Assembly (NCBI GenBank): GCA_021796055.1
Contig: JAJYOS010000051.1
Location: 1-14,818, forward strand
Direction: 5' to 3'
DNA: 14,818 nt
Origin: Bacteroidota bacterium
GTDB lineage: Bacteria; Bacteroidota; Kryptoniia; Kryptoniales; JAKASW01
Under the pieces are notes generated by a model. The model saw nothing but the letters and a program-made list of their open reading frames with translations, was not told where the DNA came from and made no database searches. Of the stretch, positions 1-14,818 are shown one piece after another (the first letter of the stretch is position 1; the number at the start of each line of letters is the position of its first letter). The position numbers and the translations under genes were made by a program.

Positions 1-35
1 TTTTTCTAAGTTTTGCATAGGAAAGTAGTAAGCAA

Positions 36-51
36 AGTTTCACGTGGAACA
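36..51. promoter_or_regulatory. parS: parS site 1 (ParB/Spo0J binding site), upstream of mnmG
   Basis: The 16-mer reads AGTTTCACGTGGAACA. It matches the conserved bacterial parS palindrome (TGTTNCACGTGAAACA, here read on the opposite strand as TGTTTCACGTGGAACA) at 15 of 16 positions; only the first base differs. ParB loads on such sites and spreads to organise origin segregation. The site ends 75 bp before the mnmG start, and a second copy lies just after that gene, so chance occurrence is unlikely. It could also influence mnmG transcription, but nothing seen here shows that. Confidence 0.88.
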
Positions 52-126
52 GGAGCAATTTTCGAAGATGTTCACTTGCACGAGGACATCTCGACTGCGA
101 GGAAATAGATAGGGAATTCGAGAAAG

Positions 127-2001
127 ATGACAGAGAAGAAGTACGATGTGATCGTTGTCGGTGCCGGTCATGCCGGCATCGAAGCTGCGTTGGCCGCTGC
201 CCGGATGGGGTGTTCCGTGATGATGGTAACAATGGATATTGCCGCTATCGGGCGCATGTCGTGCAATCCCGCGATTGGTGGAACAGCCAAGGGAAACCTC
301 GTGAGGGAAATTGATGCTCTTGGTGGCGAGATGGGAAAAATTGCTGACGCCACCGGCATACAGTTCAGGATGCTGAATCGTTCGAAGGGGCCTGCCGTCT
401 GGTCGCCGCGCGCGCAGAATGATAGGGAGGGGTACTCAATCGAAGCTCGACGACGGGTCGAGGCGCAGGAGAATGTGCATATTCTTCAGGATATGGTCAC
501 TGATGTATATGTGGAAAATGGGGAAATGGTCGGTGTGCAAACTGGGACCGGTGTCAGGGTGCCATGCAAAGCCCTTATCATCTCGTCCGGTACTTTTCTG
601 AACGGCGTGATGCATACCGGCCTGAAAAGCAGGATTGGTGGACGCTTCAACGAGCCTCCCGCAATTGGCCTGACCGCTTCGCTTGAGAAACTTGGTTTCG
701 TCAGCGGGAGACTGAAGACAGGCACTCCGCCAAGGGTGGACAAGCGAAGCATCGACTTCAGCAAAGTTGAAGAGCAGCCAGGTGACCCCGATCCTGAGCC
801 TTTCTCGTTTCAGACAAAGGAAGTGACCAGGGATCAGGTCAGCTGTTTCCTGACGTACACGAACCACGACACTCATGAGCTGCTGAGAAATGGATTCGAT
901 AGGTCACCGATGTTCACGGGGCTGATTAAGGGAATCGGTCCGAGGTATTGCCCGTCCATCGAAGATAAGATTGTGAGGTTCGCTGAGAAGGAAAGGCATC
1001 AGATATTCTTGGAGCCTGAGGGACGCGACACGAACGTTGTCTACGTGAATGGCTTCTCTACCAGTCTCCCCGCCGAGGTCCAGTACGATGCAATGAAGAC
1101 GGTCCCCGGGCTGGAGAATGTCGAGATGCTTCGGCCTGGATATGCGGTTGAGTATGACTTCTTTCCTCCACACCAGGTGAAACTTACCCTCGAGACCCAG
1201 CTTGTGAAAGGGCTGTTCTTCGCCGGGCAGATAAACGGCACTTCCGGTTATGAGGAGGCTGCGGGACAGGGAATCGTGGCTGGAATTAACGCCGCGTTAA
1301 GGGTAAAGGGCGGAGATCCTTTCGTACTCAGAAGATCCGAGGCTTACATCGGAGTATTGATCGATGACCTCGTCAACAAGGGGACTAGCGAGCCTTACCG
1401 TATGTTCACTTCCAGAGCGGAGTACCGCCTGATGTTGAGACAGGATAATGCCGACCGACGTCTGATGAAGCACGGCCATAAGTTCGAACTTCTTCCTCCC
1501 GATGTTTACGATGCTCTTCGAAAGAAAGAAGAATACATTTCTGTCCTCACTGATTACGTCCGCCAGAAGAGTGTTCCTCCGGCAGCGGTGAATTCTTATC
1601 TGGAATCGATCGGCTCTACAATCTTGTCGGAAAATGAAAAAGTGTCACAGCTTATTAAGAGGCAGGATGTGAAGTTGTCAGAACTCTTACAGATGGAGTT
1701 CTTCCGATCCGACTCGCTTCCGCTGGAAGCCGCGAGTCATAAACATGTAGTCGAGCAGGTAGAGATCGAGACGAAGTACGAAGGATACATTGTCCGCCAG
1801 CTTGAGGAGATCAAAAAGTTTGAAAAGTTTGATTCGATGGAAATCCCGGAAGGATTTGACTACGCTCGAGTGAAGTCTCTATCTACCGAAGCAAGAGAGA
1901 AACTAACGAGAGTCTTGCCTTCCTCTATCGGGCAGGCAAGCCGTATTTCGGGCGTATCTCCGGCTGACATATCCGTGCTGATGGTTTACCTCCACGGTTG
2001 A
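127..2001 (+). CDS. mnmG: MnmG (GidA), tRNA uridine-34 5-carboxymethylaminomethyl modification enzyme
   Basis: This is the FAD-dependent subunit that, with MnmE, installs cmnm5 (or nm5) groups at wobble uridine 34 of certain tRNAs in the cytoplasm. The 624-residue length is normal for the family. The FAD-binding Rossmann motif VGAGHAGIEAA is at residues 11-21, and the signature SCNPAIGGTAKG at 45-56 contains Cys46. A second conserved cysteine (SCFLTYTN, Cys240), GTSGYEEAAGQG at 371-382 and TSRAEYRLMLRQDNAD at 428-443 are all intact; the C-terminal helical region is present. ATG at 127 is the first possible start, because an in-frame TAG lies at 106-108; the Shine-Dalgarno is weak. parS sites flank the gene. 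The usual partner gidB (rsmG) does not follow it; murQ does. Confidence 0.98.
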   Translation: MTEKKYDVIVVGAGHAGIEAALAAARMGCSVMMVTMDIAAIGRMSCNPAIGGTAKGNLVREIDALGGEMGKIADATGIQFRMLNRSKGPAVWSPRAQNDREGYSIEARRRVEAQENVHILQDMVTDVYVENGEMVGVQTGTGVRVPCKALIISSGTFLNGVMHTGLKSRIGGRFNEPPAIGLTASLEKLGFVSGRLKTGTPPRVDKRSIDFSKVEEQPGDPDPEPFSFQTKEVTRDQVSCFLTYTNHDTHELLRNGFDRSPMFTGLIKGIGPRYCPSIEDKIVRFAEKERHQIFLEPEGRDTNVVYVNGFSTSLPAEVQYDAMKTVPGLENVEMLRPGYAVEYDFFPPHQVKLTLETQLVKGLFFAGQINGTSGYEEAAGQGIVAGINAALRVKGGDPFVLRRSEAYIGVLIDDLVNKGTSEPYRMFTSRAEYRLMLRQDNADRRLMKHGHKFELLPPDVYDALRKKEEYISVLTDYVRQKSVPPAAVNSYLESIGSTILSENEKVSQLIKRQDVKLSELLQMEFFRSDSLPLEAASHKHVVEQVEIETKYEGYIVRQLEEIKKFEKFDSMEIPEGFDYARVKSLSTEAREKLTRVLPSSIGQASRISGVSPADISVLMVYLHG

Positions 2002-2032
2002 ACAGGTGGGATATCGCGCCTGACCGTCGGAA

Positions 2033-2048
2033 GGTTTCACGTGAAACA
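2033..2048. promoter_or_regulatory. parS: parS site 2 (ParB/Spo0J binding site), downstream of mnmG
   Basis: GGTTTCACGTGAAACA matches the parS consensus at 15 of 16 positions and contains a perfect 14-bp palindrome, GTTTCACGTGAAAC, at 2034-2047. It lies 31 bp after the mnmG stop codon. The 24 bp from 2034 to 2057 match site 1 (37-60) at 22 positions, so the similarity extends about 9 bp past the palindrome (gagcaatt in both). This suggests that the two sites are duplicates rather than independent occurrences. Confidence 0.9.
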
Positions 2049-2084
2049 AGAGCAATTGAACTAATCTTAAAGCATAAGAAACCG

Positions 2085-2103
2085 TTGATTCTGCTCGAAT
2101 CAA
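2085..2103. other. Stem-loop between mnmG and murQ
   Basis: A perfect 7-bp inverted repeat, TTGATTC (2085-2091) and GAATCAA (2097-2103), surrounds a 5-nt loop. No T-run follows, so a rho-independent terminator is not well supported. It may be an RNA hairpin that weakly separates mnmG from murQ, or a protein-binding palindrome. A 10-bp palindrome, CCATTAATGG, follows at 2117-2126 in the same 151-bp gap. Confidence 0.35.
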
Positions 2104-2152
2104 GGGAATTTGCTAACCATTAATGGAAATTTTGGAAGTTGGGAGTGGTTAA

Positions 2153-3085
2153 ATGGCTGATGGAAAGGACCTGTTCAAAGAGCTGGCATCTCTGACGACG
2201 GAGAAAAGAAATATTGCCTCGATGAGGATCGACATGGCAGACCCCATCGAGATCATCCGTATAATTAACGACGAAGACAAGAAGATAGCTTTCGCTGTTG
2301 AGCAGGAGCTACCTTATATCGCGAAAGCCGTCGAGATGGTGGCACACACGTTCGCGAATGGAGGCCGTCTCTTCTACATTGGTGCAGGCACCAGCGGAAG
2401 GATCGGCGTCCAGGATGCGGCCGAGTGTCCGCCCACCTTCGGCAGTGACCCGGAGCAAATACAGGGACTCATAGCGGGAGGAAGGCGGGCGATCTTCAAG
2501 GCTCAGGAAGGCGCCGAGGACAAAGAGGAAAACGGCGCGAACGACATCATGGCACACGGCGTAACGGAGCGGGATGTCGTATGCGGGATAGCCGCCAGCC
2601 GAAGAACTCCATACGTCGTCGGCGCGGTTAAGAAGGCGCGGGAGATAGGAGCAAAGACGCTCTTCGTGACTACCAACCCGCGTTCGCAGTTCAACATCGA
2701 CGTAGACGTTGCCATCTGTCCGGAAGTCGGTCCCGAAGTAATCATGGGCTCGACGAGAATGAAGTCCGGCACCGCACAGAAGATGGTCTTAAATATGATA
2801 ACGACGGCCGCAATGGTCCTTCAGGGAAAAGTCTACGAGAATATGATGGTAGACCTGCAGATGACCAACAAGAAACTTGAAGAGAGATCGAAAAAAATAG
2901 TGATGACGATAACCGGCGTCGATTACGATGAGGCGGAGAGAGTGCTCAGACTCGCGAACGGTCATGTTAAGACGGCAGTTGTCATGATTAAGGCAAATGT
3001 AAATGCCGAAGATGCGAAGAAGCGTCTAGCAAAGGGGGGCGGTTTCGTGAGGCGGGCGATAGAGGGAGAAATTGGAAAACACTAA
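2153..3085 (+). CDS. murQ: MurQ, N-acetylmuramic acid 6-phosphate etherase
   Basis: MurQ cleaves the lactyl ether of MurNAc-6-phosphate to give GlcNAc-6-phosphate and D-lactate, a cytoplasmic step in peptidoglycan recycling. The 310-residue protein is a full-length SIS-domain member. LTTEKRN at 14-20 is the family N-terminal signature. GAGTSGRIGVQDAAECPPTFG at about 77-97 contains the sugar-phosphate loop and Glu91; GAED at 120-123 contains Glu122. The 31-residue spacing of these glutamates equals that of the acid/base pair Glu83/Glu114 known in the E. coli enzyme. GIAASRRTPYVVGA (145-158) and GSTRMKSGTAQK (from about 209) are also intact. The start ATG has a Shine-Dalgarno GGGAG at 2140-2144 with 8-nt spacing. 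The gene overlaps mfd by 14 bp. No MurNAc transporter or kinase gene is in view. Confidence 0.97.
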   Translation: MADGKDLFKELASLTTEKRNIASMRIDMADPIEIIRIINDEDKKIAFAVEQELPYIAKAVEMVAHTFANGGRLFYIGAGTSGRIGVQDAAECPPTFGSDPEQIQGLIAGGRRAIFKAQEGAEDKEENGANDIMAHGVTERDVVCGIAASRRTPYVVGAVKKAREIGAKTLFVTTNPRSQFNIDVDVAICPEVGPEVIMGSTRMKSGTAQKMVLNMITTAAMVLQGKVYENMMVDLQMTNKKLEERSKKIVMTITGVDYDEAERVLRLANGHVKTAVVMIKANVNAEDAKKRLAKGGGFVRRAIEGEIGKH

Positions 3086-6000
3086 CTTGATCCGCCTGAT
3101 GACGGATCTCGATTCAATTGAAACGAGCCGGACGGTCATTGGCTCGATTCCTGCAACAGGCACGACGGCGCTTCATTGTTTAAGCATCCCGTATTTTGCT
3201 TTCGTGCTGACAAGGCTTCTGAAATCAGATAAGTCACCGCTTCTCCTAGTCATCGACGAAGAGGAAGCGAGTGAGCGACTTCAGTCGGACTTCACGGTCT
3301 TCTCCGGCATTCACCCGATCCAGCTGACAGGGGATGACCAAGGGGAACCGGACTCAGGAACCTTCGGTCTCAACCTTGCCGGTCTGTTTGAGTTCTACTC
3401 CGGCGCAAGGAATCTTTACGTCTGCGATTATGCCGCTATCTTTCGTAAGATGCCCGCGCATGAGACCCTTAAAGAGACTGCCGTTATAATAAAGGCGCAA
3501 GCCGACGTAGATCACGACGAGCTCATCAAGAAGCTGTCCAGATATGGCTACCAGCAGAAAGATTATGTCGAAGAGGTGGGCGACTTCGCGGTCCGCGGAA
3601 GCATAATAGACATCTTTCCGGATTCCGGTGAAAACCCGATCAGGATAGATTTCTTTGGCGACAATGTCGACTCGATACGCGTTTTCGACGCGGTCACTCA
3701 GCGCTCGATCCAGGGGATCGATTCGTTTACTCTCCTCCCCTTTGCCAACTCGGCAAAGGACTCTTCGCCCTTCTCAGATCAAATCCCCCAGGGGACAAGG
3801 ATAATCTTTCACGAGCCCGCGGCGATATCCGAAGATTTAGCAGGAGACTTCCCTGAGCTTGTGGAACGAGTCTCAAAGAAAGCAACTATCCTTTACTGGA
3901 AGGTGCTTGAGAGAGTTGCGGACGAGCCTGGAGTGGAGGTGACTCCGCAACCGACGTTCGGGGGGAAACTTCAACTCGCCGCGAACAAAATCGCTGAGCT
4001 ATTTGCGGATGGCTACAGGATAACCGTAGCTTCGAGTACCAGGCATTTGGAGGATAATTTCCTCAACCTTCTCAACGAATACGACGACCTTAACGGTACC
4101 ATGCTCAAGCAGGAGGTCCAGCTCGTGCAGGCGTCGCTTTCCGGTGGGTTCATTCTCCCAGTCGACAAGTTTGCATTCCTTACCGAACATGAGATATTTG
4201 GCCGTCGATCGCCGCTAGTCTCCAGGAAAGAGAAGGCAAGGAAGTTCGTTGGACTTTTGCGCCGAGATTTGAACTCGCTCCGAAAAGGGGACTACGTCGT
4301 CCACGAGGAATATGGCATCGGGCGGTTCCTTGGCATGCAGAAGCTGAAGATAATAGACAGCACGCAAGAATGCGTGAAGATTGAGTATGCCGATGGCGAC
4401 ATGCTTTATGTCCACATAGACTACGTCGGCAGGCTCCAGCGATACGCCTCCGAGGACGGTTTCAACCCCAAACTTTCCAAACTCGGCGGCGCCGACTGGC
4501 AGCTCATGAAGACCCGCGCCAAAGGAAAGCTAAAAGACATTGCCAAGGATCTGATCAAACTATACGCGGACCGTAAGAAATCCAAAGGTTTCACATTTCA
4601 GAAGGACAGCATTTGGCAGCACGAACTTGAGGCGTCGTTTGTGTATGAGGACACCCCGGACCAGTCGCGTGCCACCTCCGAGATCAAGAAGGACATGGAA
4701 AGTGACAACCCGATGGACAGGCTGCTCTGCGGAGATGTCGGTTTCGGAAAAACGGAAGTTGCCGTGCGCGCCGCCTTCAAAGCGGTAATGAGCGGGAAGC
4801 AGGTCGCCGTCCTCGTCCCCACGACGATCCTTGCCGAACAGCATTACAACACCTTCCGTGACAGGCTTGCCGAGTACGCCGCGAGAGTCGAAGTACTCTC
4901 CAGATTCAGGAAGAAATCGGAGCAGAAGGTGATACTCCAGAAACTCGAAAAGGGGGATGTCGACATCGTCATCGGGACACATCGGCTTCTTTCAGGCGAC
5001 GCGAAGTTTCACGATCTGGGGTTGTTGATTGTCGACGAGGAGCACAGGTTCGGTGTCGAAGCAAAAGAGAAAATCCGCCAGCTGCGCGCTAGCGTAGACA
5101 CACTTTACATGACCGCAACGCCTATCCCGAGGACTCTTTACATGTCCCTCTCATCGGCGATGGATATTTCGATCCTTCAGACGCCCCCCGCCAACAGGCT
5201 TCCGATTGATACCTACATCATCAACTTCGACGGAAAACTCATACAGTCCGTCATAGAGCGTGAGCTTGGCCGCGGCGGACAGGTTTACATCGTCAGCGAC
5301 ACGGTGAAGGACCTGAACAAGCTGGCCGACTTCGTTCAAAGGAGAGTTCCGGGAGCGAAGGCCGGAGTCATCCATGGGAAGATGAAGGCGACAGAGATCG
5401 AGCGCACGATGGTTCATTTCCTCGAAAAGAAACTCAACATTCTCATAGCCACCAAGATAATAGAATCAGGTATAGACATACCCTCGGTGAACACGCTCAT
5501 TGTCAACAACGCTGACAGGTTCGGTCTCGCGGAGCTTTATCAGATTCGCGGCCGCATCGGGCGATCCAACGTGCAGGCGTACGCGTATCTCATCGCGAAA
5601 CAGTTCTCATACCTGACCCGAGACGCGGTGCGGCGGCTAACCGCGATAGAGGAATTCAGCGAGCTCGGCTCCGGGTTCAACCTCGCGATGCGCGACCTCG
5701 AAATCCGCGGGGCGGGTAACGTGCTCGGGAGAGAGCAGAGCGGATTCATAAATAACCTCGGATTCGAGATGTACAACAAGGTACTGGAGGAGGCCGTGGC
5801 CGAGGCGAAGTTTGAAGAGAACCTTACGGAGCAGCTCGACACGCTTACCCGGAGAAAGGTCGAACCACAGGTCACCGCCGATGTCGACGCTTACATACCC
5901 GACGACTATGTCTCCCTCGACGCCGACAGATTCGATTTTTACAAGCGCCTCTCCCGGGCCGCGATGGCAGCTGAGGTCGACGACATTCGGGCTGAGATGC

Positions 6001-6332
6001 TAGACAGGTTCGGCAAGATACCAGAACAGGCGGATAACCTCTTCAAACTGATCAAGCTCAAGATAGGACTCGAACCTCTCAGAATACCTAAAGTCGAAAT
6101 GAAAGCCGCAACCGTCGACATCATTCTTCCTTCCGACGACCATGAGTTCTACAAAGAGATATTCCCGCTGATGATGAATGCCCTCGACAGGATTGGCGAC
6201 ATCAAATACAGGGTCACGCAGGAAAACGCGAACGCGAAAGTTGAAGTGAAGTTTGTATCTGGTGGATCGGAAAGCGAAGGGGCGAAGATAGATAGACTCG
6301 AACGGCTCGTCGAAGTCCTGAAGATAATTTAG
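3072..6332 (+). CDS. mfd: Mfd, transcription-repair coupling factor
   Basis: Mfd is a DNA translocase that releases RNA polymerase stalled at lesions and recruits UvrA for nucleotide excision repair. The 1086-residue protein has the expected domain order. A UvrB-like N-terminal region comes first (DFAVRGSIIDIFP at 171-183), then the CarD-like RNA-polymerase interaction domain (KGDYVVHEEYGIGRFLGM, 405-422). The superfamily 2 motor follows, with Walker A GDVGFGKTE (554-562), DEEH (655-658), TATPIPRT (681-688) and QIRGRIGRS (824-832), and then the C-terminal TRCF domain. The start is TTG at 3072, inside the end of murQ in another frame. GGGAG at 3064-3068 precedes it by only 3 nt, so translational coupling to murQ is likely. 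An ATG at 3102 is the alternative start but lacks a Shine-Dalgarno. A terminator-like hairpin follows the gene. Confidence 0.97.
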   Translation: MENTNLIRLMTDLDSIETSRTVIGSIPATGTTALHCLSIPYFAFVLTRLLKSDKSPLLLVIDEEEASERLQSDFTVFSGIHPIQLTGDDQGEPDSGTFGLNLAGLFEFYSGARNLYVCDYAAIFRKMPAHETLKETAVIIKAQADVDHDELIKKLSRYGYQQKDYVEEVGDFAVRGSIIDIFPDSGENPIRIDFFGDNVDSIRVFDAVTQRSIQGIDSFTLLPFANSAKDSSPFSDQIPQGTRIIFHEPAAISEDLAGDFPELVERVSKKATILYWKVLERVADEPGVEVTPQPTFGGKLQLAANKIAELFADGYRITVASSTRHLEDNFLNLLNEYDDLNGTMLKQEVQLVQASLSGGFILPVDKFAFLTEHEIFGRRSPLVSRKEKARKFVGLLRRDLNSLRKGDYVVHEEYGIGRFLGMQKLKIIDSTQECVKIEYADGDMLYVHIDYVGRLQRYASEDGFNPKLSKLGGADWQLMKTRAKGKLKDIAKDLIKLYADRKKSKGFTFQKDSIWQHELEASFVYEDTPDQSRATSEIKKDMESDNPMDRLLCGDVGFGKTEVAVRAAFKAVMSGKQVAVLVPTTILAEQHYNTFRDRLAEYAARVEVLSRFRKKSEQKVILQKLEKGDVDIVIGTHRLLSGDAKFHDLGLLIVDEEHRFGVEAKEKIRQLRASVDTLYMTATPIPRTLYMSLSSAMDISILQTPPANRLPIDTYIINFDGKLIQSVIERELGRGGQVYIVSDTVKDLNKLADFVQRRVPGAKAGVIHGKMKATEIERTMVHFLEKKLNILIATKIIESGIDIPSVNTLIVNNADRFGLAELYQIRGRIGRSNVQAYAYLIAKQFSYLTRDAVRRLTAIEEFSELGSGFNLAMRDLEIRGAGNVLGREQSGFINNLGFEMYNKVLEEAVAEAKFEENLTEQLDTLTRRKVEPQVTADVDAYIPDDYVSLDADRFDFYKRLSRAAMAAEVDDIRAEMLDRFGKIPEQADNLFKLIKLKIGLEPLRIPKVEMKAATVDIILPSDDHEFYKEIFPLMMNALDRIGDIKYRVTQENANAKVEVKFVSGGSESEGAKIDRLERLVEVLKII

Positions 6333-6372
6333 TCTGGTCGATTTCCATGGAGTGGCTGATCACGACTGAATG

Positions 6373-6402
6373 CCGGGGAGCGAAACTCACTCCCCGGTCT
6401 TT
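6373..6402 (+). terminator. Probable rho-independent terminator of the murQ-mfd unit
   Basis: An 8-bp GC-rich stem, CCGGGGAG (6373-6380) and CTCCCCGG (6390-6397), has a 9-nt loop and is followed by TCTTT. It lies 41 bp past the mfd stop and faces the convergent ATPase gene. Read on the minus strand, no T-run follows the hairpin, so it appears to serve mfd rather than the ATPase. Confidence 0.7.
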
Positions 6403-6505
6403 CGCAACACTATTTACTGATTCAATTCAAAGCATGCAGTATCGCAATACGGATAGCGCAAGTTCGACACAAAACACACCTCCGTCGCTTGCCGCTGCAT
6501 ATTCC

Positions 6506-8929
6506 CTATTCAACACGGAATTTCTTGAACGCATAATATTTCGGCACATCAGTAACAAACGTGAAGATTACTGAAAAGACAAGGACGGCAAATACTTCGC
6601 TTGGAGTTATTGCCGGGATTATTATCCCATAAATACCGAGGAAGATAAACGCGACTACTCCGCCCAGCGTCGCGATCGTCAACGCGCCGCCCGGAAGCGA
6701 ATCCCAGAAAAATCTTCTCTCGCGAACGCTGATCACTCTGAACTGGCTCGTGAAGACTAGCATCAGAAGCATGAATGTCTGAAGTTGCGGGAAGCTGAGG
6801 TGCAGGTAATCCTTTCCCCAAAGCAGCGTCGCGATTCCGCCGATCACGAACAACCCGCCGACTGCCAGGGAGGCGAATGTTATGTCTCTGACGTTCCAGT
6901 TGTTCGGCGCAATGGTGTGTTTCACGTTGTCTGTCGCGAGGGACATTGTCACGAAATCGAGCGCGAACACGAGGAGCGACATGCCCAGAAGAGACAAAAC
7001 CATCTTGTCGATCATGAAGAAGCCGACCATAAGCAAGCCGACGAGTTGTACCACCTTGGTGACTTTGTTTATCACCCATGTCAACATTCTCTGGTATGTT
7101 TCGCGGCTGCGCTTGACCGCGTCGACGATGACGCTCACGCCGGGCTGTGTCAGCACGACGCTTGCCGATGCCTTCGCGACATCCGTAGAATTGCTGACCG
7201 CGATTCCCATCTCGGCCTGCTTGAGGGCTGGGGCGTCATTCACGCCGTCCCCCGTCATGCCGACCATGTAGCCTTTTGACTGAAGGAGCTTCACTATCTT
7301 GTATTTATCCTCGGGATAAATTTCGGCGAATCCGTCGCTTTCCGCGGCCTTCTTCGCCTGTTCGTCCTCGCTTAAGTTCGCGATGTCGGAAAGCCTGATG
7401 ACGTTAGTGCCTATACCGACCTGGCCCGCAATTTCCCTCGCGATCGCGAGGCTGTCGCCCGTGAGCATTAACGGCTTCACGCCAAGTTCCTTTACCTCCT
7501 CGATCATCTTCTTGCTGTCCGGCCTCGGCGGGTCGGCAAGCGGAATCAAACCCGCAAGACGGAGATCGTCAGGGTTACCATCAATGGAGCAGGCCACGGC
7601 GATTGTGCGATATCCCTTCCGCGAAAAAGAATCGATCTGCTTATCGACATCGGCGGTGGTTTCTGCGTCAAGACCATTGCACATTCCGAGAATAACCTGC
7701 GCGGCGCCCTTCACAGCGCGATATTGCTTCCCCTCGGTTTCGAATATCGCCTCGGTCCTTTTGATGGCAGGATTGAACGGAGTGTAGGAGATTTGCTTGT
7801 GGGAATTCATGCTTATGTTCTGGCTCTTAGCGAAGTCGATCACCGCTAGGTCGATCAAATCCATCCCTTCGTACCTCGATGCGAGCACCGCCGTCCGAAT
7901 TACTTCGTCCTTCTTGAAACCTGAGTACGGTATGCTGTCGGTGACTGCCAGCTTGTTCTGAGTGATTGTTCCTGTCTTGTCGAGACAGAGCACACTGATG
8001 GATGCTGCGTCCTCAATCGAGTCGAGTCGAGTCACGAGTACCCCCTCCGCCGCGAGCTTTGTGCCGGTAGCCGCCTGAACGATCGTCATGACAGCGGGTA
8101 GGGCGACCGGTACCGCGCCCATTAGGAACACGACGATAAATGTGAGGATCAAGAGGGCACTCATGTGCATTGCGAGGGCGTAAAGGGCAACCACGAGCGA
8201 TGCCGCGATTCCTAGGTACATCATGTCCTTCACGATGTTCATCATGATCTCTTCCTGGTGAGATTTCGGTTTCGCGATCTTGACCAGCTCTGCCGTCTTG
8301 CCGAAGTAAGTGTTCGCGCCGGTATTGAGCACGACGCACTTTGCTTCTCCGCGCCTGACTACGGATCCTGAATAGACCACGTCGGAATTCTGTTTCTCGA
8401 CAGGAAGAGACTCGCCGGTGAGGGCCGATTCGTCTATGGAAATGTCTCCGCCGACGATCTTAGCGTCCGCCGGTACTATATCACCGAGTTTCACCATGAG
8501 AATATCACCCGGTACTATGCCGCCGGCCTCTTCGGTTGTCCATATCCCGTTTCTCAGAATTTTCGCCTTGATGGCAAGCCGCTGCTTCAGCAACTCGACC
8601 GCCTTCTGCGACCCGCGTGAGTGCATAAACCCAATTATCGCGTTCACCGTGAGGAGCGCGAAGATGATTATTCCTTCGAGCTTGTGCTTCAGCACGAAGT
8701 CAAGTACCATGGCGAATTCGAGGAGCCATGGCATCGGACCCCAGTATCTTTTGAGAAATACCAGGACAGGATTTTTCTTTTTTTCCGTAATTTCATTTCG
8801 ACCGAAGAACGAAATGCGTTCCTGGATATCTGAATCAGAAAGTCCTGACTCTGTCGATTTTAGAAGTTTGTATGTGTCGTCTAATGACGAGGTTTTGAAG
8901 TCAGAAGTCGGTTTAATTTGGAAATCCAT
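6506..8929 (-). CDS. Plasma-membrane-type proton-translocating P-type (P3A) ATPase
   Basis: This is an integral membrane cation pump of 807 residues, most like the PMA/AHA proton-ATPase group, which exports H+ using ATP. It has the short-N-terminus layout of that group. TGES (171-174) is the actuator-domain motif, PVALP (274-278) lies in transmembrane helix 4, DKTGT (317-321) holds the phosphorylated Asp317, KGA (407-409) is in the nucleotide-binding domain, and TGD (490-492) and GDGVNDAP (560-567) complete the P-domain. About ten hydrophobic segments are visible. The LDFVTMSLATDN stretch (657-668) places acidic residues where helix 6 of proton pumps carries its key aspartate. There is no long C-terminal autoinhibitory tail. 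The ATG at 8929 has AAGGAC 8 nt upstream. It stands alone, convergent with mfd and divergent from msrA. Proton specificity is inferred; a related cation is possible. Confidence 0.92.
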   Translation of the reverse strand: MDFQIKPTSDFKTSSLDDTYKLLKSTESGLSDSDIQERISFFGRNEITEKKKNPVLVFLKRYWGPMPWLLEFAMVLDFVLKHKLEGIIIFALLTVNAIIGFMHSRGSQKAVELLKQRLAIKAKILRNGIWTTEEAGGIVPGDILMVKLGDIVPADAKIVGGDISIDESALTGESLPVEKQNSDVVYSGSVVRRGEAKCVVLNTGANTYFGKTAELVKIAKPKSHQEEIMMNIVKDMMYLGIAASLVVALYALAMHMSALLILTFIVVFLMGAVPVALPAVMTIVQAATGTKLAAEGVLVTRLDSIEDAASISVLCLDKTGTITQNKLAVTDSIPYSGFKKDEVIRTAVLASRYEGMDLIDLAVIDFAKSQNISMNSHKQISYTPFNPAIKRTEAIFETEGKQYRAVKGAAQVILGMCNGLDAETTADVDKQIDSFSRKGYRTIAVACSIDGNPDDLRLAGLIPLADPPRPDSKKMIEEVKELGVKPLMLTGDSLAIAREIAGQVGIGTNVIRLSDIANLSEDEQAKKAAESDGFAEIYPEDKYKIVKLLQSKGYMVGMTGDGVNDAPALKQAEMGIAVSNSTDVAKASASVVLTQPGVSVIVDAVKRSRETYQRMLTWVINKVTKVVQLVGLLMVGFFMIDKMVLSLLGMSLLVFALDFVTMSLATDNVKHTIAPNNWNVRDITFASLAVGGLFVIGGIATLLWGKDYLHLSFPQLQTFMLLMLVFTSQFRVISVRERRFFWDSLPGGALTIATLGGVVAFIFLGIYGIIIPAITPSEVFAVLVFSVIFTFVTDVPKYYAFKKFRVE

Positions 8930-9173
8930 TTGGATTCGTCCTTGTTCAAAGTAGGAATTTGTATCAAAGATTAGATGCTTAATGCAGGATTAGGTTCTCA
9001 ATTCGAATCACACAGTTGCTTTCTTGATTCAATATTACCAGCAAAGTGAATCCTTTTCAAGGTGCTGCACGAGCTGAAATTGGGGAAACGCGTGATCTTT
9101 GCGTTTCTATGTTGAGGCCAATGAAATTTGCTACCGAAGTTTGATGTTATTCAGGTAAAGAAAGGAGATTCTA
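8930..9173. promoter_or_regulatory. Divergent intergenic region between the ATPase gene and msrA
   Basis: These 244 bp must hold promoters for both the minus-strand ATPase and plus-strand msrA, but no convincing -35/-10 pair could be assigned. Two small inverted repeats are visible. GATTCA (9026-9031) pairs with TGAATC (9047-9052), and GAAACGC (9085-9091) pairs with GCGTTTC (9101-9107) around a 9-nt loop. The second may be an operator or a hairpin in the msrA leader. No coding potential was seen. Confidence 0.4.
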
Positions 9174-9719
9174 TTGACGGACGAGTCAATATTCGAGATC
9201 GCCACTCTTGGTGGCGGATGTTTCTGGTGCACTGAAGCTGTGTTCGACGACCTGAAGGGTGTAATCAGCGTGGATTCGGGATACTCCGGCGGGACGGTAG
9301 CCAATCCTAGCTATGAACAGGTATGTACAGGCAGAACCGGACACGCCGAGGTGGTCCAGGTAACTTTCGATTCCCAGGCGATCTCATACGAAGATATACT
9401 CAGGATATTCTTCACCGTACACGACCCAACTACGCTTAACCGGCAGGGGAACGATGTCGGGACGCAATACCGGTCGGTTATATTCTATCACAACGAAGAT
9501 CAGAAGAAGTCGGCGGAAAAGATCCTGAAGGAGATCACCGCCGAGAACATTTATGATGATCCGCTGGTGACTGAGCTTTCTCCATTTAAGGAGTTTTATA
9601 AGGCAGAAAAATATCATCAGGAGTATTTCGTGAATAATCCTAACCAGGGATATTGCCGCGTCATAATCGCACCGAAGGTCGCGAAGTTCAGAAGCCATTA
9701 CAAAGACAAGTTAAAATAA
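9174..9719 (+). CDS. msrA: MsrA, peptide methionine (S)-S-oxide reductase
   Basis: MsrA reduces the S-epimer of methionine sulfoxide in proteins and free methionine, using thioredoxin. The 181-residue cytoplasmic protein has the catalytic GCFWCTE motif, with nucleophile Cys16 and Trp18. It also has the expected GYSGG (36-40), the GHAEVVQV strand (56-63) and GTQYRSVIF (96-104). [10 protein letters not shown] carries Cys161, a likely resolving cysteine. There is no fused MsrB domain and no signal peptide. The start is TTG at 9174; AAAGGAG at 9161-9167 sits 6 nt upstream, and no ATG is available before the catalytic motif. It is divergent from the ATPase. A 186-bp gap separates it from the next gene, so shared transcription is uncertain. 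Confidence 0.97.
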
Positions 9720-9810
9720 AACATCTATATTAAAGCCGTCGGTGAAGACAGCCGGCGTGGCGCGGAGTAGAGACCCTTCTGGATTCGAGATTGACGCTGG
9801 GGTCCGTAAG

Positions 9811-9841
9811 GAGCAGGTCATAATATTCATAAGACTTGCTC
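9811..9841. other. Stem-loop in the gap between msrA and the SDR gene
   Basis: GAGCAGGTC (9811-9819) can pair with GACTTGCTC (9833-9841), giving a 9-bp stem with one G-U pair and a 13-nt A/T-rich loop (ATAATATTCATAA). It is the clearest structure in the 186-bp gap 9720-9905, which otherwise shows no gene. It lies about 65 bp before the SDR start and has no T-run, so it is more likely a leader structure or protein site than a terminator. Confidence 0.3.
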
Positions 9842-9905
9842 GAGTCACTGAACGGAAGACTATTTCCCCTCGTCAATAAATGCAAAAACTCAATGGAGAC
9901 TCTAA

Positions 9906-10655
9906 GTGAAGACATCGAATAACACGGTACTGATCACCGGCGGTGGAACCGGCATAGGCTTCTGTATCGCTGAGGAATTCGTCAAATCAGGGAACGAAGT
10001 AATTATCTGCGGGAGAAGGGAAGAGAAGCTGAAAGAGGCGAAAGAGAAGCTTCCTGATATCAGCACGAAGGTCTGTGACGTATCCAGCGCTAAAGACCGG
10101 GAAGAACTCTTTCGTTGGGTGACCACGAAGTTCAACGGCATAAACGTGCTCGTCAACAACGCGGGCGTTCAGAGGATGATCGATTTCAAAAAAGGCGCCG
10201 CCGAGCTGGCAAAGCATGAGAACGAAGTAGAGATTAACCTTACGGCGGCAATTCAGTTGGCTGCGTACTTCATACCTGGACTCATGCAGCGTGAAGAAGC
10301 CGCAATAGTAAATATATCTTCGGGATTGGCTTTCATCCCGCTTGCGATCATGCCAATTTATTGTGCCACGAAGGCTGCACTCCATTCCTTCAGCATCTCG
10401 CTGAGGCATCAGCTCAAAGATACCTCAGTGAAAGTCTTCGAGGTAATACCGCCTACTGTCGATACGGAGCTTGATAAGGGGACCCGTGATTTGAGAAACA
10501 TGACGTACAGGGGTATTCCCCCGTCGGAAGTGGCGGCAGCGATGTTGAAGTCGCTGGCGGTCGACGAGTACGAGTGCCTTGTCGGTCAGGCGAAGAACCT
10601 TATGGAGGCGTCGCGGGCAAACTTTGCCGAGCAGTTCGGCCGAATGAACCACTAG
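9906..10655 (+). CDS. Short-chain dehydrogenase/reductase (classical SDR, DltE-like)
   Basis: This is a 249-residue NAD(P)-dependent oxidoreductase of the classical SDR family. The cofactor-binding TGGGTGIG is at 11-18, the NNAG motif at 84-87 and the catalytic serine in ISSG (137-140). The YxxxK pair is Tyr152/Lys156 (YCATKAALHSFS). Overall wording resembles the DltE/YciK-type oxidoreductases of unknown substrate; no dlt genes lie nearby, so no role in lipoteichoic acid is implied. CGRR at 35-38 just after beta-2 hints at an NADP preference, which is an inference. The start is GTG at 9906, with GGAG at 9895-9898 seven nt upstream. The substrate cannot be read from the sequence. Confidence 0.9.
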   Translation: MKTSNNTVLITGGGTGIGFCIAEEFVKSGNEVIICGRREEKLKEAKEKLPDISTKVCDVSSAKDREELFRWVTTKFNGINVLVNNAGVQRMIDFKKGAAELAKHENEVEINLTAAIQLAAYFIPGLMQREEAAIVNISSGLAFIPLAIMPIYCATKAALHSFSISLRHQLKDTSVKVFEVIPPTVDTELDKGTRDLRNMTYRGIPPSEVAAAMLKSLAVDEYECLVGQAKNLMEASRANFAEQFGRMNH

Positions 10656-10726
10656 GAAAGCGGAAGGGCTGACAGTACAAAGCGTTGCATCAAGCCGCGT
10701 GAAGGCAAACCATCGGAGGAATAACT

Positions 10727-11197
10727 GTGGAGGAGTTTGAGATTCGCGACGCGACGAAGGAAGACGCCGCGTTGTTTGCTGAATACAGGTTTCGCATGTT
10801 TGTCGACATGCATCCTGAAACGGATTTCGAAAGTAGAAAAAAAGAGTTTGTCAGGAAATCGGAAGTTTATTACTCAGGACACCTAGGCTCGAAAGACGAG
10901 TATAGCTGTGTGGTGGTCGTCAGCGAAAGAGTCGTGGCGTGTGGGTCGATCTCCTTTTGGGACAGGCCGCCGCACATCGATTATTTCGAGAACAATATTG
11001 GTTATGTCCACAGTATTTACGTTCGAAAAGAATTCAGGCGCCGCGGAATCTCGAAGGCCGTCATGGCGCGGCTTCATGAAGAAGCGAGGAAGCGCGGGAT
11101 GCGCAAAGTTGGGCTTCACGCTTCTGAGTCAGGCCGTCTGGTATACAAGCCCATGGGATATAAAGGGAATGATTCTTATCTCGAAGTTGAGCTTTGA
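10727..11197 (+). CDS. GNAT-family N-acetyltransferase
   Basis: This is a 156-residue single-domain acetyltransferase predicted to move an acetyl group from acetyl-CoA to an unknown amine. The N-terminal strand (EFEIRDATKEDAAL) and the central strand HSIYVRKEFRRRGISKAVMARLHEEARKRG (95-124) fit GNAT motif A, with RRRGIS at 104-109 as the CoA-pyrophosphate loop. The KVGLHASESGRLVYKPMGY stretch (127-145) fits motif B and the common 'YxxxGF'-like end. The start is GTG at 10727 with GGAGGA at 10715-10720, 6 nt upstream. It lies 71 bp after the SDR gene in the same direction and may be co-transcribed. The substrate is unknown; small-molecule detoxification and protein acetylation are both possible. 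Confidence 0.88.
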   Translation: MEEFEIRDATKEDAALFAEYRFRMFVDMHPETDFESRKKEFVRKSEVYYSGHLGSKDEYSCVVVVSERVVACGSISFWDRPPHIDYFENNIGYVHSIYVRKEFRRRGISKAVMARLHEEARKRGMRKVGLHASESGRLVYKPMGYKGNDSYLEVEL

Positions 11198-11233
11198 TGA
11201 ATCTCAAACGCTGATGCATTAGATTAAAGCGGA

Positions 11234-11258
11234 GTCGCCGACAGGGAAAAGGGGCGAC
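11234..11258. other. Short stem-loop between the GNAT and DUF3795 genes
   Basis: GTCGCC (11234-11239) and GGCGAC (11253-11258) form a 6-bp GC-rich stem with a 13-nt loop. No T-run follows. It may attenuate read-through from the GNAT gene into the next gene, but support is slight. Confidence 0.25.
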
Positions 11259-11288
11259 CCGATTGACCAAATCGTCGGAGGGCTTAAA

Positions 11289-11714
11289 ATGGGCGAAATA
11301 GTTGCCAGATGCGGTTTCAGATGCGATGAATGCGCCGCCTACGCAGGGAACAAACAGTCACAGGATGACAGGGTCAAGGTTGCGGCGGCGTGGAACAAAT
11401 ATTTCGAGCTTAACCTCTCGCCGGAGAAAATTCGCTGCAACGGTTGTTGGGGCAATACATGCCCCGGAAGCGACCTTCCGGATTTGTCATGTCCAATCCG
11501 TGCCTGTGTCATGGAGAGAAGCATGAACACATGCGCAGACTGCTTCGATTATCCTTGCGAGAAGATGGAAACTCGTATGCAGGGCGTCGAGGATGTGATC
11601 GCACGGTTCAAGGACAAGATAACCCATACAGAGTACAACACGTACCTTGCTCCGTACGATGCAAGAAAGACTCTGAATGAGTTGAGGGACCGAAGGGTGG
11701 ACAGAATAGACTGA
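11289..11714 (+). CDS. DUF3795 cysteine-rich protein
   Basis: This 141-residue protein carries eleven cysteines, placed as in the DUF3795 family. The N-terminal CGFRCDECAAY has Cys8, Cys12 and Cys15; a middle cluster (CNGCWGNTC) has Cys50, Cys53 and Cys58; CPIRAC has Cys68 and Cys73; and CADCFDYPC has Cys82, Cys85 and Cys90. This pattern suggests binding of zinc or an iron-sulfur cluster, but the family's biochemical role is not established. The C-terminal 50 residues are helical and lack cysteine. ATG at 11289 has CGGAGGG about 8 nt upstream. No partner gene suggests a pathway, and it is separated from the restriction-modification operon by about 80 bp. Confidence 0.88.
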   Translation: MGEIVARCGFRCDECAAYAGNKQSQDDRVKVAAAWNKYFELNLSPEKIRCNGCWGNTCPGSDLPDLSCPIRACVMERSMNTCADCFDYPCEKMETRMQGVEDVIARFKDKITHTEYNTYLAPYDARKTLNELRDRRVDRID

Positions 11715-11793
11715 GCGAAGAAGTTCTTATAAAGGTATTCTCAGTCTTAAACATGCCAAAATACCGTTGAAAAGGTCTGTCGATTTAAGTATT

Positions 11794-13191
11794 ATGAGTT
11801 ACAAGATTTTCCCAATGGAGAGACGCCGACCTAACCGAATCCGAAAGTCAGAACTGTCAGAGCTGAAGGCAGACTTCACATTAGATTCAAGCCTCACTCG
11901 CAAAGGGGATACGCCGGTGATGGAAAGGCTAACGGCTCTACTTTCAAAAGACCTGGGGTTTCACGATGCCCCTGTCAGCAATGGCAGGCATAATTTTCAT
12001 TCTTTTCCCGCGAAGTTTCCTCCACAGCTATCGCGCTTTTTCATAGAGAATCTGTCGGTGCCCGGCGAACTTGTCCTGGATCCGATGTCAGGTTCCGGGA
12101 CGACTGTTGTGGAGGCAGCATCAGCGGGCAGAGTGGGATTGGGATTCGACATTGATCCTTTGGCTCTTCTGATCACGAAGGTCAAGCTTACCCCACTTGA
12201 CACGGCTTCGGTGGAGCGCCAAGTTAACAAGGTGGCACAGGAGGCGGAGCTTTCCTTGATGCACCCGTCCAGATTGGAAAAAGAGGTAAATGGCAGATTC
12301 GACGAAAAGACAAAGCAATTCATAGACTATTGGTTTAGTGAACAGACCCAGATCGAACTGATGAGTCTCCTCATTCAAATCGAAAAAGTCAAAGATCCTG
12401 ACATAAAGGATTTTCTGAAGCTTACCTTTTCGGCGATCATCGTAACGAAGTCGGGAGGCGTTTCCCTTGCCTGGGACTTAGGACATACACGTCCCCATAG
12501 ACTCAATCAAGGCAAGCCTAAGAAATACAAACCCGCAATTCCCGAGTTCGAGAAGCGTGCTACAAAGAACCTAATGGGGCTGACGAGCAACGGCGAGATG
12601 GTAGAGAGAAGCCGCGTTCGGTTTGGAAATGCTGAGAACCTTCCGTTGCAGGATGAAAGTATAGATCTCATTGTCACATCTCCGCCATACGCATCGAATG
12701 CGATAGATTACATGCGGGCTCACAAGTTTTCGTTAGTGTGGCTAGGCAATGAGGTTGATAGCCTGACCGAGCTTCGGAGCAAGTACATCGGCGGGGATAA
12801 AGTTACCGACTTTGATTTTGAATCTTTGCCGCCCCTTCCGGAAAGCGTAATATCAAACATCTCTAAACTAGATAATCAAAAAGCATTGGTACTTCGTAGG
12901 TACTATTCAGAAATGACAAGAGTCCTTAATGAAATGCGTCGGGTTTTGAGACCCGGAAAAGTGGCAATTGTAGTCGTAGGATCTTCGGTGATGCGAGGAA
13001 TAGATACGGAGACTGACAGGTGCCTGGCCGAAATAGGTAGGGCACTAGGCCTACCTTGTGCAGGCATAGGAGTCCGACTGCTGGACCGCGATAGGCGCAT
13101 GATGCCGACGAGCACAAAGAGCCGCGCGGATTCGCAGATAGAGAACCGAATGCATCGAGAGTTCGTGCTAGCGTTTGTGAAACCAAACTAG
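11794..13191 (+). CDS. Type II DNA methyltransferase, SPPY amino-MTase (probably N4-cytosine)
   Basis: This is the protective methyltransferase of a restriction-modification pair. From the ATG at 11794 it has 465 residues. HNFHSFPAKFPP (67-78) leads to the SAM-binding motif I, LDPMSGSGTT (95-104), with FDID at 119-122. The catalytic motif IV, TSPPY, is at 295-299. About 190 residues lie between them and could hold target recognition. MRRVLRPGKVAIVVVGSS (381-398) is the usual later strand. SPPY is typical of N4-cytosine and some N6-adenine enzymes; C5-cytosine hallmarks (PCQ, ENV) are absent. The start is uncertain: TTG at 11767 and ATG at 11815 are also in frame, and none has a clear Shine-Dalgarno. 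The endonuclease gene begins 11 nt after its stop. If both recognise the same all-G/C site, the product must be N4-methylcytosine. Confidence 0.93.
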   Translation: MSYKIFPMERRRPNRIRKSELSELKADFTLDSSLTRKGDTPVMERLTALLSKDLGFHDAPVSNGRHNFHSFPAKFPPQLSRFFIENLSVPGELVLDPMSGSGTTVVEAASAGRVGLGFDIDPLALLITKVKLTPLDTASVERQVNKVAQEAELSLMHPSRLEKEVNGRFDEKTKQFIDYWFSEQTQIELMSLLIQIEKVKDPDIKDFLKLTFSAIIVTKSGGVSLAWDLGHTRPHRLNQGKPKKYKPAIPEFEKRATKNLMGLTSNGEMVERSRVRFGNAENLPLQDESIDLIVTSPPYASNAIDYMRAHKFSLVWLGNEVDSLTELRSKYIGGDKVTDFDFESLPPLPESVISNISKLDNQKALVLRRYYSEMTRVLNEMRRVLRPGKVAIVVVGSSVMRGIDTETDRCLAEIGRALGLPCAGIGVRLLDRDRRMMPTSTKSRADSQIENRMHREFVLAFVKPN

Positions 13192-13202
13192 GGGGTAGAA
13201 GA

Positions 13203-14060
13203 ATGGACAAGATTTACCAGATACGCCATGCGTACCATTCGAGAGCTCTGAAATCTGCAATGTATCTCAAGAAAGGTCATATACCGAGCATTGCAGACGT
13301 GAGCAGTAAGGGGAGCATCAGAATATCAGAGGCCGTCATTACCCACATCGGGATCAGCCTCGGCAAGAGTCAAATCGAGGGTCAAAAGGCGGGCAAAATT
13401 TTCGAGCAACTCACCAGGGATTTTCTCGAAGAGGTCTTTACTTATTTGAAGAATGTCCGCCCGGGGAAATGGAGGTTTTCTGTGCACGAGGAAATATCTG
13501 ACTTTGCGCAGTACAAGCATCTTGGAGAGCTCACGAATATTCTTAAGGGTGAAGTTCCCAAAGACACTCGTACAAATTTGAAGAGTCTGCTGGGGGACTA
13601 TCTTGTTACTCCTGATGTGGTTGTTTCACGGACACCTTTGGCCGACTCGGAGCTAGACCGAACCGGAGAGCTGCTCAAAGGAGGTCGTCACGCCACGTTC
13701 ACGCCTCTCAGGCAATCAAATAGCACCAGTATGATTCTCCATGCTAGCATTTCCTGTAAGTTGACAATGCGAAGCGACCGGGCGCAGAATGCCAGAACTG
13801 AAGCACTGAATCTGATAAGAAACCGAAAGGGCAACACTCCCCACATATCCGTCGTAACCGCTGAGCCTCTTCCTAGCCGAATTGCCTCCGTAGCTCTTGG
13901 GACCGGGGACATCGATTGCGTGTACCATTTCGCACTGCCCGAATTGCAGGCGGCGGTACAAGAAAAAGGAAATGAAACAGATCAAGAGCAGTTGGACATG
14001 ATGATCAACGGCAGACGCCTCAGAGATATTTCCGACCTCCCTTTTGATCTGGCGATTTGA
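13203..14060 (+). CDS. NgoMIV-family type II restriction endonuclease, predicted GCCGGC
   Basis: This 285-residue enzyme is nearly the length of NgoMIV (286). The PD..K..E active site is visible. Asp138 lies in TPD, Ser184 and Lys186 lie in SISCK, and Glu200 follows with exactly 13 residues between Lys and Glu, as in NgoMIV and Cfr10I. Glu68 (GKIFEQL) matches the extra NgoMIV acidic residue Glu70. RSDR at 190-193 sits four residues after the lysine and matches the Arg-x-Asp-Arg that reads the inner CCGG. Gln61, seven residues before Glu68, matches the NgoMIV glutamine that contacts the outer G:C. The C-terminal half (ALGTGDIDCVYHFALPEL, about 231-248) is almost word-for-word NgoMIV. Known members act as tetramers that cut two sites together. 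ATG 13203 uses AGGGGG, which overlaps the methyltransferase stop, so translation is probably coupled. Confidence 0.96.
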   Translation: MDKIYQIRHAYHSRALKSAMYLKKGHIPSIADVSSKGSIRISEAVITHIGISLGKSQIEGQKAGKIFEQLTRDFLEEVFTYLKNVRPGKWRFSVHEEISDFAQYKHLGELTNILKGEVPKDTRTNLKSLLGDYLVTPDVVVSRTPLADSELDRTGELLKGGRHATFTPLRQSNSTSMILHASISCKLTMRSDRAQNARTEALNLIRNRKGNTPHISVVTAEPLPSRIASVALGTGDIDCVYHFALPELQAAVQEKGNETDQEQLDMMINGRRLRDISDLPFDLAI

Positions 14061-14083
14061 AGATTGGTCAGTAAGACCCGTGA

Positions 14084-14100
14084 GGTAGAACTCCTCTACC
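14084..14100. terminator. Possible weak hairpin between convergent genes
   Basis: GGTAGA (14084-14089) and TCTACC (14095-14100) form a 6-bp stem with a 5-nt loop. The hairpin lies between the endonuclease and zinc-ribbon genes and overlaps the minus-strand stop codon (14096-14098). There is no clear T-run on either side, so a bidirectional terminator role is only a guess. Confidence 0.25.
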
Positions 14101-14533
14101 CTCTCATCAAATCTTTCAACTTCATGAATAGCGAATGGGACTGCAGATGTTTAACCGTCGATTGCCAGTTTGCTTCGGCGCTGAATTTCCGCTGTTCGTC
14201 TCTTTTCCGCTCCTTCATAAGTACGAGTATGCGGTCGTCTTCTCCGGCCTCTAGCCAGAAACCATGCCTGTTCTCGCAGTATTCGAGAACAAGGTCATAC
14301 ATCCTGTAATCGAACTGCCTCAAACTAGATTCACACACCGGGCAGCTGTACTTCGCCGGGATGCTCGATAACATCAGTGAACCTTTTTCCTCTTCATCAC
14401 TGAAGGCTTCGTTCTCAAGTTCATCCAGTTCGCTCATCGTAAACCACATTCCATGGTCATTAGAGCAGCTCTGGACGGCTATTCCGTGACGGAGCTGATT
14501 TGTCATCTCCGCTCCACACTCGGGGCATCTCAT
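14096..14533 (-). CDS. Small protein with two zf-TFIIB-type zinc ribbons
   Basis: Read from ATG at 14533, the protein has 145 residues and begins directly with its first zinc module. Module 1 is Cys3-x2-Cys6-x16-Cys23-x3-His27 (MRCPECG, then SCSNDHGMWF). Module 2 is Cys64-x2-Cys67-x18-Cys86-x3-His90 (CPVC, then YCENRHGFWLEAGE). The HG-x-W ending of each module is the zf-TFIIB signature. An acidic linker separates them, and a charged helical tail (LMKERKRDEQRKF) follows. Such proteins are common, and their function is largely unknown. This start is preferred to the upstream ATG at 14644 because GAGG lies 6 nt before it. The longer reading would also translate through the left arm of an inverted repeat. 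It is convergent with the endonuclease gene. Confidence 0.85.
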   Translation of the reverse strand: MRCPECGAEMTNQLRHGIAVQSCSNDHGMWFTMSELDELENEAFSDEEEKGSLMLSSIPAKYSCPVCESSLRQFDYRMYDLVLEYCENRHGFWLEAGEDDRILVLMKERKRDEQRKFSAEANWQSTVKHLQSHSLFMKLKDLMRG

Positions 14534-14574
14534 AGAAATCCTCTTTTCTAATGGTGTTGTGTCGAAAAAGGGCA

Positions 14575-14594
14575 GTGTCCAAAATTCAATTATC
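14575..14594 (+). repeat. Left arm of the 20-bp inverted repeat
   Basis: This arm pairs perfectly with 14799-14818; the match stops at 14595 on the inner side. It lies 42 bp upstream of the zinc-ribbon start codon, so the segment it bounds could contain that gene's promoter. Confidence 0.85.
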
Positions 14595-14798
14595 ATTTCC
14601 TGAGAAAGTTCCTCTTTGACCGCAAAGTCCGCCGAGAGCAGCATTGGTCACTCTTAGTGAAAAGAACTTGGTGATTCTTCGTGGTCCCCGGGGGGCATTT
14701 CAAATCATATGGTAAAGAAAATCAAATAGGACACTACTCGAAAAAGCTAATCGTGGTCACGATAAAAGACAAGGAAGACATTAAGGCCGAATTGTTGA

Positions 14799-14818
14799 GA
14801 TAATTGAATTTTGGACAC
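14799..14818 (-). repeat. Right arm of the 20-bp inverted repeat, at the window edge
   Basis: This is the exact reverse complement of 14575-14594. It includes the window's last base, so its true outer limit is unknown and the repeat may continue beyond the window. Confidence 0.85.

Follow-up and report, generated by a model that had tools for sequence, protein, structure and literature searches.

Among type II restriction-modification systems, NgoMIV/NgoAIV of Neisseria gonorrhoeae (PDB 1fiu, 4abt) pairs its endonuclease with a C5-cytosine methyltransferase (PF00145 for locus L082), in the order methyltransferase then endonuclease, and its modification, taken from REBASE, is 5-methylcytosine (m5C) at GCCGGC (PMC6789123; here and below, cited papers other than PMC5578853 are represented by excerpts of their text). 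NgoMIV displays type IIF behavior, with a tetramer and two-site cleavage (PMC4081073), and contacts its bases through an R-(D/E)R motif with an inner serine together with Q63, D34, and R227 (PMC4652773, PMC6344858). In this work, we analyzed a window of 14,818 nucleotides from a Bacteroidota bacterium (contig JAJYOS010000051.1, assembly GCA_021796055.1, positions 1 to 14,818), which encodes an endonuclease of the same family (hereafter R), with the same gene order and the same six contacts, but with an amino-type methyltransferase (hereafter M) as partner. We consider it highly probable that the two genes form a chromosomal type II restriction-modification system in which R cuts G/CCGGC and M protects by N4-methylcytosine (m4C), and that this system belongs to an N4-partnered branch of the NgoMIV family.

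On the methyltransferase side, the nearest experimentally characterized relative that we found by sequence is M.DraR1 (DR_C0020) of Deinococcus radiodurans, an alpha-class enzyme encoded on a small plasmid. Like M, it has its S-adenosylmethionine (SAM) motif first and an SPPY motif, TSPPY, late in the C-terminal part; its N4-cytosine chemistry is proven, as its deletion abolished the signal at C(m4C)GCGG and strongly reduced 4mC, but not 6mA (PMC6712171). M.DraR1 differs in its site, CCGCGG, and in its partner, R.DraR1, an unrelated GIY-YIG endonuclease encoded by the tenth open reading frame upstream (PMC10855626). A change of chemistry at one site is also described for cyanobacterial CGATCG, where m4C replaces m5C in some lineages; those methyltransferases are tied to a repeated palindrome, whereas here an entire branch within a single endonuclease family is concerned (PMC4390886).

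Methylation of GCCGGC in the literature that we examined is mostly m5C: it is predicted in PMC5578853, given in PMC12114051, and recorded by two m5C methods in Aeromonas hydrophila (PMC8565308, PMC8112702). The same motif is in print as an m4C motif, weakly, through single-molecule real-time calls in Sinorhizobium meliloti, where it is a core motif with an average frequency of 0.06 that is present in REBASE with no enzyme assigned; the searched text of that paper names neither NgoMIV nor an endonuclease (PMC11711589). This signal may come from a relative of M or may be noise, and no Sinorhizobium plasmids were among the NgoMIV-family plasmid matches, a search that did not extend to the chromosome. 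Among the open-licence papers that we examined, none describes an NgoMIV-family endonuclease whose partner is of the m4C type; REBASE, where many such pairs may be listed as predictions, was outside the search.

The endonuclease and its predicted site

M (11794..13191, + strand) and R (13203..14060, + strand) lie head to tail with M upstream; both reading frames are open and intact, and 11 nt separate the stop codon of M from the ATG of R, the spacing given in a first-pass annotation of this DNA. R is 285 residues long and matches PF09015 over positions 13-275 of the 275 in the profile (E 5.2e-96, 321.5 bits against a cut-off of 23.2). It also aligns with NgoMIV (PDB 1fiu; E 6e-66) through residues 6-285 against 7-286. 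The residues from which the first-pass annotation had recognized an NgoMIV-type enzyme, Asp138, Ser184, Lys186, Glu200, and the RSDR stretch R190-S-D-R193, are all present, the last (residues 190-193; 13770..13781, + strand) being the CCGG-reading motif (PMC6344858, PMC4652773).

The permuted active site of NgoMIV is kept, with E70, D140, K187, and E201 corresponding to E68, D138, K186, and E200 in R, and so are its base contacts D34, Q63, R191, D193, R194, and R227, which correspond to D32, Q61, R190, D192, R193, and R226. All six contacts are retained in 94 of the 95 rows of the endonuclease tree described below, under both partner chemistries; in the sole exception, L048, Q replaces R191, and its locus has M in two fragments. 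Because the base contacts are conserved, the site best predicted for the endonucleases of either branch is GCCGGC. We expect that R cuts unmodified G/CCGGC and probably acts as an NgoMIV-like tetramer bridging two sites. All 7999 candidates scored for R, and 3635 of the 8000 for M, had an E-value of up to 0.001, and these values, together with the number of relatives, exclude a chance resemblance of either protein to its family.

The methyltransferase and its predicted chemistry

M comprises 465 residues when counted from the ATG at 11794, a start that is uncertain, with TTG 11767 and ATG 11920 as the other candidates; the latter derives from the length of the 423-residue database copy P0123, if the start of P0123 is right. 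Residues 1-26 are of low confidence in the AlphaFold model, which has an overall predicted local distance difference test score of 82.7. Along the protein come HNFHSFPAKFPPQ, which we take to resemble motif X, then motif I DPMSGSGTT (residues 96-104; 12079..12105, + strand), and then the catalytic motif IV TSPPY (residues 295-299; 12676..12690, + strand). The order of SAM motif, middle region, and SPPY-type motif is that of alpha-class amino-methyltransferases, described as having an FxGxG-like SAM motif first and the SPPY-type motif late (PMC6712171). D96, P97, M98, G100, S101, and T103 of motif I are unvaried across 43 M rows, as is TSPPY, which was found in all 62 NgoMIV-linked M frames longer than 350 residues.

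Profile searches agree with the amino-type assignment made in the first-pass annotation. M matches PF01555 (N6_N4_Mtase) with an E-value of 2.3e-18, and the C5 family PF00145 is absent from its Pfam matches at E up to 1, whereas all four C5 partners submitted to Pfam match PF00145. The first-pass annotation had also argued from missing PCQ and ENV motifs; neither literal string occurs in M, but PCQ is likewise absent from three of five annotated C5 partners, so that its absence alone is not diagnostic. We also considered M as a diverged C5 enzyme that had gone unrecognized, which the motifs and the absence of a PF00145 match rule out. A fold search of the M model was uninformative as a guide to chemistry, with generic SAM-dependent folds on top (Trm11 first, Dam lower) and a query template-modeling score of ~0.3.

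The relatives of M point to cytosine. Three of its four top PDB matches are N4-cytosine enzymes (8s9m, 8s9n, and PvuII), the similarity being local around motif I. M is collinear with a 'site-specific DNA-methyltransferase' on D. radiodurans plasmid pCP1 (24% identity over 392 residues), which we identify as M.DraR1 because the plasmid agrees and because D63, P64, T255, and N261 stand at the places numbered in the paper. A methyltransferase near an MvaI/BcnI-family endonuclease is 26% identical over 423 residues, and there are two further plasmid loci of this kind; all three enzymes (L189-L191) have TSPPY, as M does, next to an endonuclease family that differs from NgoMIV and presumably recognizes CCWGG/CCSGG. 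For both M (154 bits) and L189 (463 bits), the top-scoring PADLOC profile is PDLC03322, which describes a type II methyltransferase; L189 is far closer to it. Another relative, annotated as an N4-cytosine methyltransferase, is encoded by a haloarchaeal virus at a distance of one gene from an endonuclease of the Eco29kI type.

Since GCCGGC contains no adenine, m4C is the expected product of M, and it is well supported by the homology to M.DraR1 and by TSPPY; the first-pass view that m4C is the only amino-methylation possible at this site thus fits both the conserved contacts and the collinearity with M.DraR1. A rival reading is that M makes N6-methyladenine in a site overlapping or containing GCCGGC. 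PF01555 spans both N6 and N4 enzymes, and the motif alone is no proof of the base; nevertheless, the lack of an adenine in the site, the conserved contacts of R to the outer base pair, the uniform TSPPY of the NgoMIV-linked enzymes, and the loss of 4mC rather than 6mA on deletion of M.DraR1 (PMC6712171) make this very improbable.

Partners across genomes, plasmids, and viruses

The first-pass annotation had read the pairing as a partner swap around a conserved endonuclease. Surveys of other loci contradict a local or rare event. The annotation had named the existence of many NgoMIV homologues beside this methyltransferase family as grounds against its reading, and at sequence level such homologues are indeed numerous. 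Genomes were scanned with an alignment of R, and the best 80 of 579 loci were taken, a sample biased towards the query. At 75 of these 80, the M family of the window is the sole partner class within 2.5 kb; 70 of the 75 have a strong M match no more than 400 bases from the R frame, and the other five (L008, L039, L048, L067, L068) are cut or fragmentary, or their distance was taken from an R frame that is incomplete or extends too far. C5 partners occur at L030, L077, and L079, the last adjoining R, with a divergent SPPF-type enzyme just under 0.9 kb downstream of R, and at L041 and L076 R lies at a contig edge. The SPPF enzyme was considered as a swap intermediate and rejected on account of its distance, its divergence, and its grouping with other M-family members.

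Mobile elements and viruses have a different composition. Among 17 matches (16 plasmid, 1 phage), the eight loci that were examined all have a C5 partner. Scanning viral contigs with the R protein alone yielded no locus, and scanning them with the R alignment yielded 56, many of them near-identical: 53 with C5, two with the window-type M (L137, L139), and one with none. Closer to the window, R has a match in nine of 100 relatives of the nearest genome, eight of them with the window-type M; in the ninth, G013, contig ends interrupt the locus.

A wider, uneven draw by phylum and class around seven centers, leaving out the seeds and the genus of the window, yielded 31 genomes with a match: 16 with the window-type M, three with a beta-order SPPY enzyme, seven with C5, and five without a callable partner (two with an apparently full R and no partner found, three with R fragments). 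The 26 callable genomes thus divide into 19 amino-type and seven C5. By group, the ratio of amino-type to C5 is 2:1 in the phylum of G001, 10:3 in Chloroflexota, 2:0 in the phylum of G102, 5:0 in the phylum of G107, and 0:3 in Pseudomonadota with its G108 class; the cyanobacterial draw added none.

Several loci from these surveys deserve mention in their own right. L104 (G621) and L124 (G1050) carry an apparently full-length R with no methyltransferase within ~1.5 kb on either side. The beta-order enzymes lie upstream of R in the Chloroflexota draw (L112:508-1446, L116:527-1435, L117:2287-3225); they are ~310 residues long, with TSPPY first and FSGSGT last (PF01555 E 3e-49 for L112), and represent a second amino-type partner. 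Very-short-patch repair endonuclease genes (L084:2209-2682, L087:2036-2446) adjoin two C5-partnered NgoMIV systems, as expected because m5C is mutable.

Phylogeny and partner exchange

For the tree, the partner was defined as the nearest methyltransferase within 2 kb. There are 193 loci with R, and in 176 it is full length, duplicates included; these comprise 98 with the window-type M, 71 with C5, three with the beta SPPY enzyme, and four with none. The C5 partners form three clusters of 36, 33, and 2. After removal of the four partnerless loci and of 77 rows that shared 80% identity or more with a retained row, 95 rows remained, 69 with the window-type M, 24 with C5 (17+6+1), and two with the beta enzyme.

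In the careful R tree, 23 of the 24 C5 rows fall on one side of a branch with support 100/99, and the other 72 rows stand apart; the NgoMIV of Neisseria is in the other main branch from the R of the window. The exception is the viral L130, with a C5 partner of its own cluster, placed among the N4 rows. The fewest chemistry changes on the tree are two, and a single-change tree is not rejected by the approximately unbiased test (p-AU 0.135 for the careful tree, 0.547 for the quick tree); L130 is therefore a possible, statistically not required, chemistry reversal. On the viral contigs, the arrangement is seen at L130:2908-4852 and at L131, where R groups with N4-partnered rows and the C5 methyltransferase belongs to its own cluster. 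When five partner classes are distinguished, the tree has seven changes against a least possible four; therefore partners, chiefly those of the two main C5 clusters, have been exchanged more often than chemistry. The beta-order SPPY partner and the presence of three C5 clusters suggest additional exchanges, with a single specificity conserved throughout. Being unrooted, the tree gives no direction to the changes of chemistry.

The N4-side rows bear 16 phylum-level names, mostly from metagenome bins: Bacteroidota, Chloroflexota, Chlorobiota, Ignavibacteriota, Gemmatimonadota, Rhodothermota, Pseudomonadota, Binatota, Latescibacterota, Acidobacteriota, Actinomycetota, Thermodesulfobacteriota, Myxococcota, Bacillota, Sumerlaeota, and KSB1. 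By sequence, systems with this pairing make up a large separate branch whose usual partner is an alpha-order SPPY methyltransferase, with the known C5 system in the other branch, and the N4-partnered branch is probably old.

Against this background, we consider it extremely improbable that a C5-kind NgoMIV endonuclease captured another methyltransferase recently in the lineage of the window. NgoMIV itself and the examined plasmid and phage loci do have C5 partners, which would suit such a capture, but the same M family stands beside most of the best genome matches, all but one of the C5 rows are gathered across one strongly supported branch, two chemistry changes or even one would suffice for the whole tree, and the genus-mates described below keep the pair between the same neighbors. 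The single pairing is ordinary, and the family-wide split in chemistry is the interesting part.

Linkage of the two genes

M is on the same strand as R and upstream of it in all 69 window-type tree rows. M and R distances correlate (r 0.57) over the 62 of these rows that were usable, with an M frame longer than 350 residues, and none of 2000 permutations was as high (highest 0.22). The NgoMIV-linked methyltransferases also lie on one side of a branch from nine other M-family members (support 99, with long-branch warnings). From the adjacency of M and R at many loci and their correlated divergence, we infer a common specificity, as in a type II pair, in which M would protect by m4C the same GCCGGC site that R would cut.

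Restriction-modification pairs usually decay in the endonuclease first, with the methyltransferase retained. In G011 (L353:7631-9458), M is kept and R is reduced to ~110 C-terminal residues, and M is likewise kept beside a truncated or broken R in G896 (L118/L120) and G1036 (L125/L128).

Several observations weigh against the proposed system. The specificity of M is deduced from linkage and co-divergence instead of from a known recognition domain, and M is only 24-26% identical to its nearest relatives of known or guessable chemistry. At four of the 176 full-length R loci, there is no partner within 2 kb, two of these (L041, L076) being at contig edges. Avoidance of GCCGGC is weak and mixed: in samples of 0.27-0.38 Mb per genome from six genus members, its observed-to-expected ratio is 0.80, 0.87, 0.78, and 0.98 in G001, G003, G010, and G012, which have R, and 0.98 and 0.91 in G002 and G006, which do not. 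Its ranks among the 64 palindromes are 4, 9, 1, and 45 in the former and 42 and 16 in the latter, and other palindromes are equally low. The avoidance in three of the four genomes with R is suggestive; as a proof of specificity, we rejected it as too weak.

These points bear on two further rivals. M and R might be adjacent but non-cognate, M modifying another motif and R being inactive or otherwise protected, as the putative nature of the specificity of M and the weak avoidance would allow. Linkage across many phyla with correlated divergence argues against this, as does the remnant of R beside M in G011, expected if M must outlive R, and we regard the non-cognate reading as distinctly improbable. 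A system that is intact yet silent or inactive in this host is unlikely, though less so: weak avoidance and the broken endonucleases of G011, G896, and G1036 would fit it, but both genes of the window are full length with their catalytic residues, and R is 100% identical in G001, the nearest genome compared. A working, cognate GCCGGC system is the reading we retain.

Genomic context

The pair is flanked, outside the system, by a DUF3795 gene on the left (11289..11714, + strand) and a zinc-ribbon protein gene on the right (14096..14644, - strand). The same neighbors enclose it in genus-mate G010, in G003, where additional DNA lies on the left side, and in G013 as judged from two contig ends, and in G012 the pair is in another arrangement. 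R has a match in six of 13 genomes of the genus and none in the other seven. From the shared neighbors, the losses, and the presence in genus-mates, the locus looks settled in the chromosome and lost in some genomes, rather than newly acquired.

On the right side of the pair, ~170 bases at 14571-14747 match seven scattered sites in G013 at 69-77% identity and form a dispersed repeat. Elsewhere in the window, an E1-E2 (P-type) cation ATPase gene of 807 codons (6506-8929, - strand), whose product is 93% identical in G010, adjoins mfd and msrA.

Implications for the NgoMIV family

At least two families of amino-methyltransferases and three C5 clusters appear to serve a single endonuclease specificity, which makes the NgoMIV family a natural experiment on the choice of modification chemistry, in which m5C mutability, escape from modification-dependent nucleases, and temperature may play a part. 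NgoMIV itself is untypical of the family as drawn, although the Pseudomonadota and gammaproteobacterial draws gave three C5 and no amino-type partners.

A tentative idea, which we think rather doubtful, is that the family consists of two lineages with an unchanged GCCGGC readout, each with endonucleases tuned to the mark of its own partner. By analogy with R.DraR1, which at CCGCGG is reported to be blocked by m4C and still to cut m5C sites (PMC10855626), an R of the N4 branch might, with the same reservation, be blocked by m4C yet cut m5C sites. If so, hosts of the N4 branch could restrict DNA from hosts of the C5 branch, and selection would act on the chemistry of the mark rather than on the sequence. 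In uncultured bacteria, m4C at GCCGGC probably stems from this pairing in some cases, a mark that annotators might otherwise label m5C.

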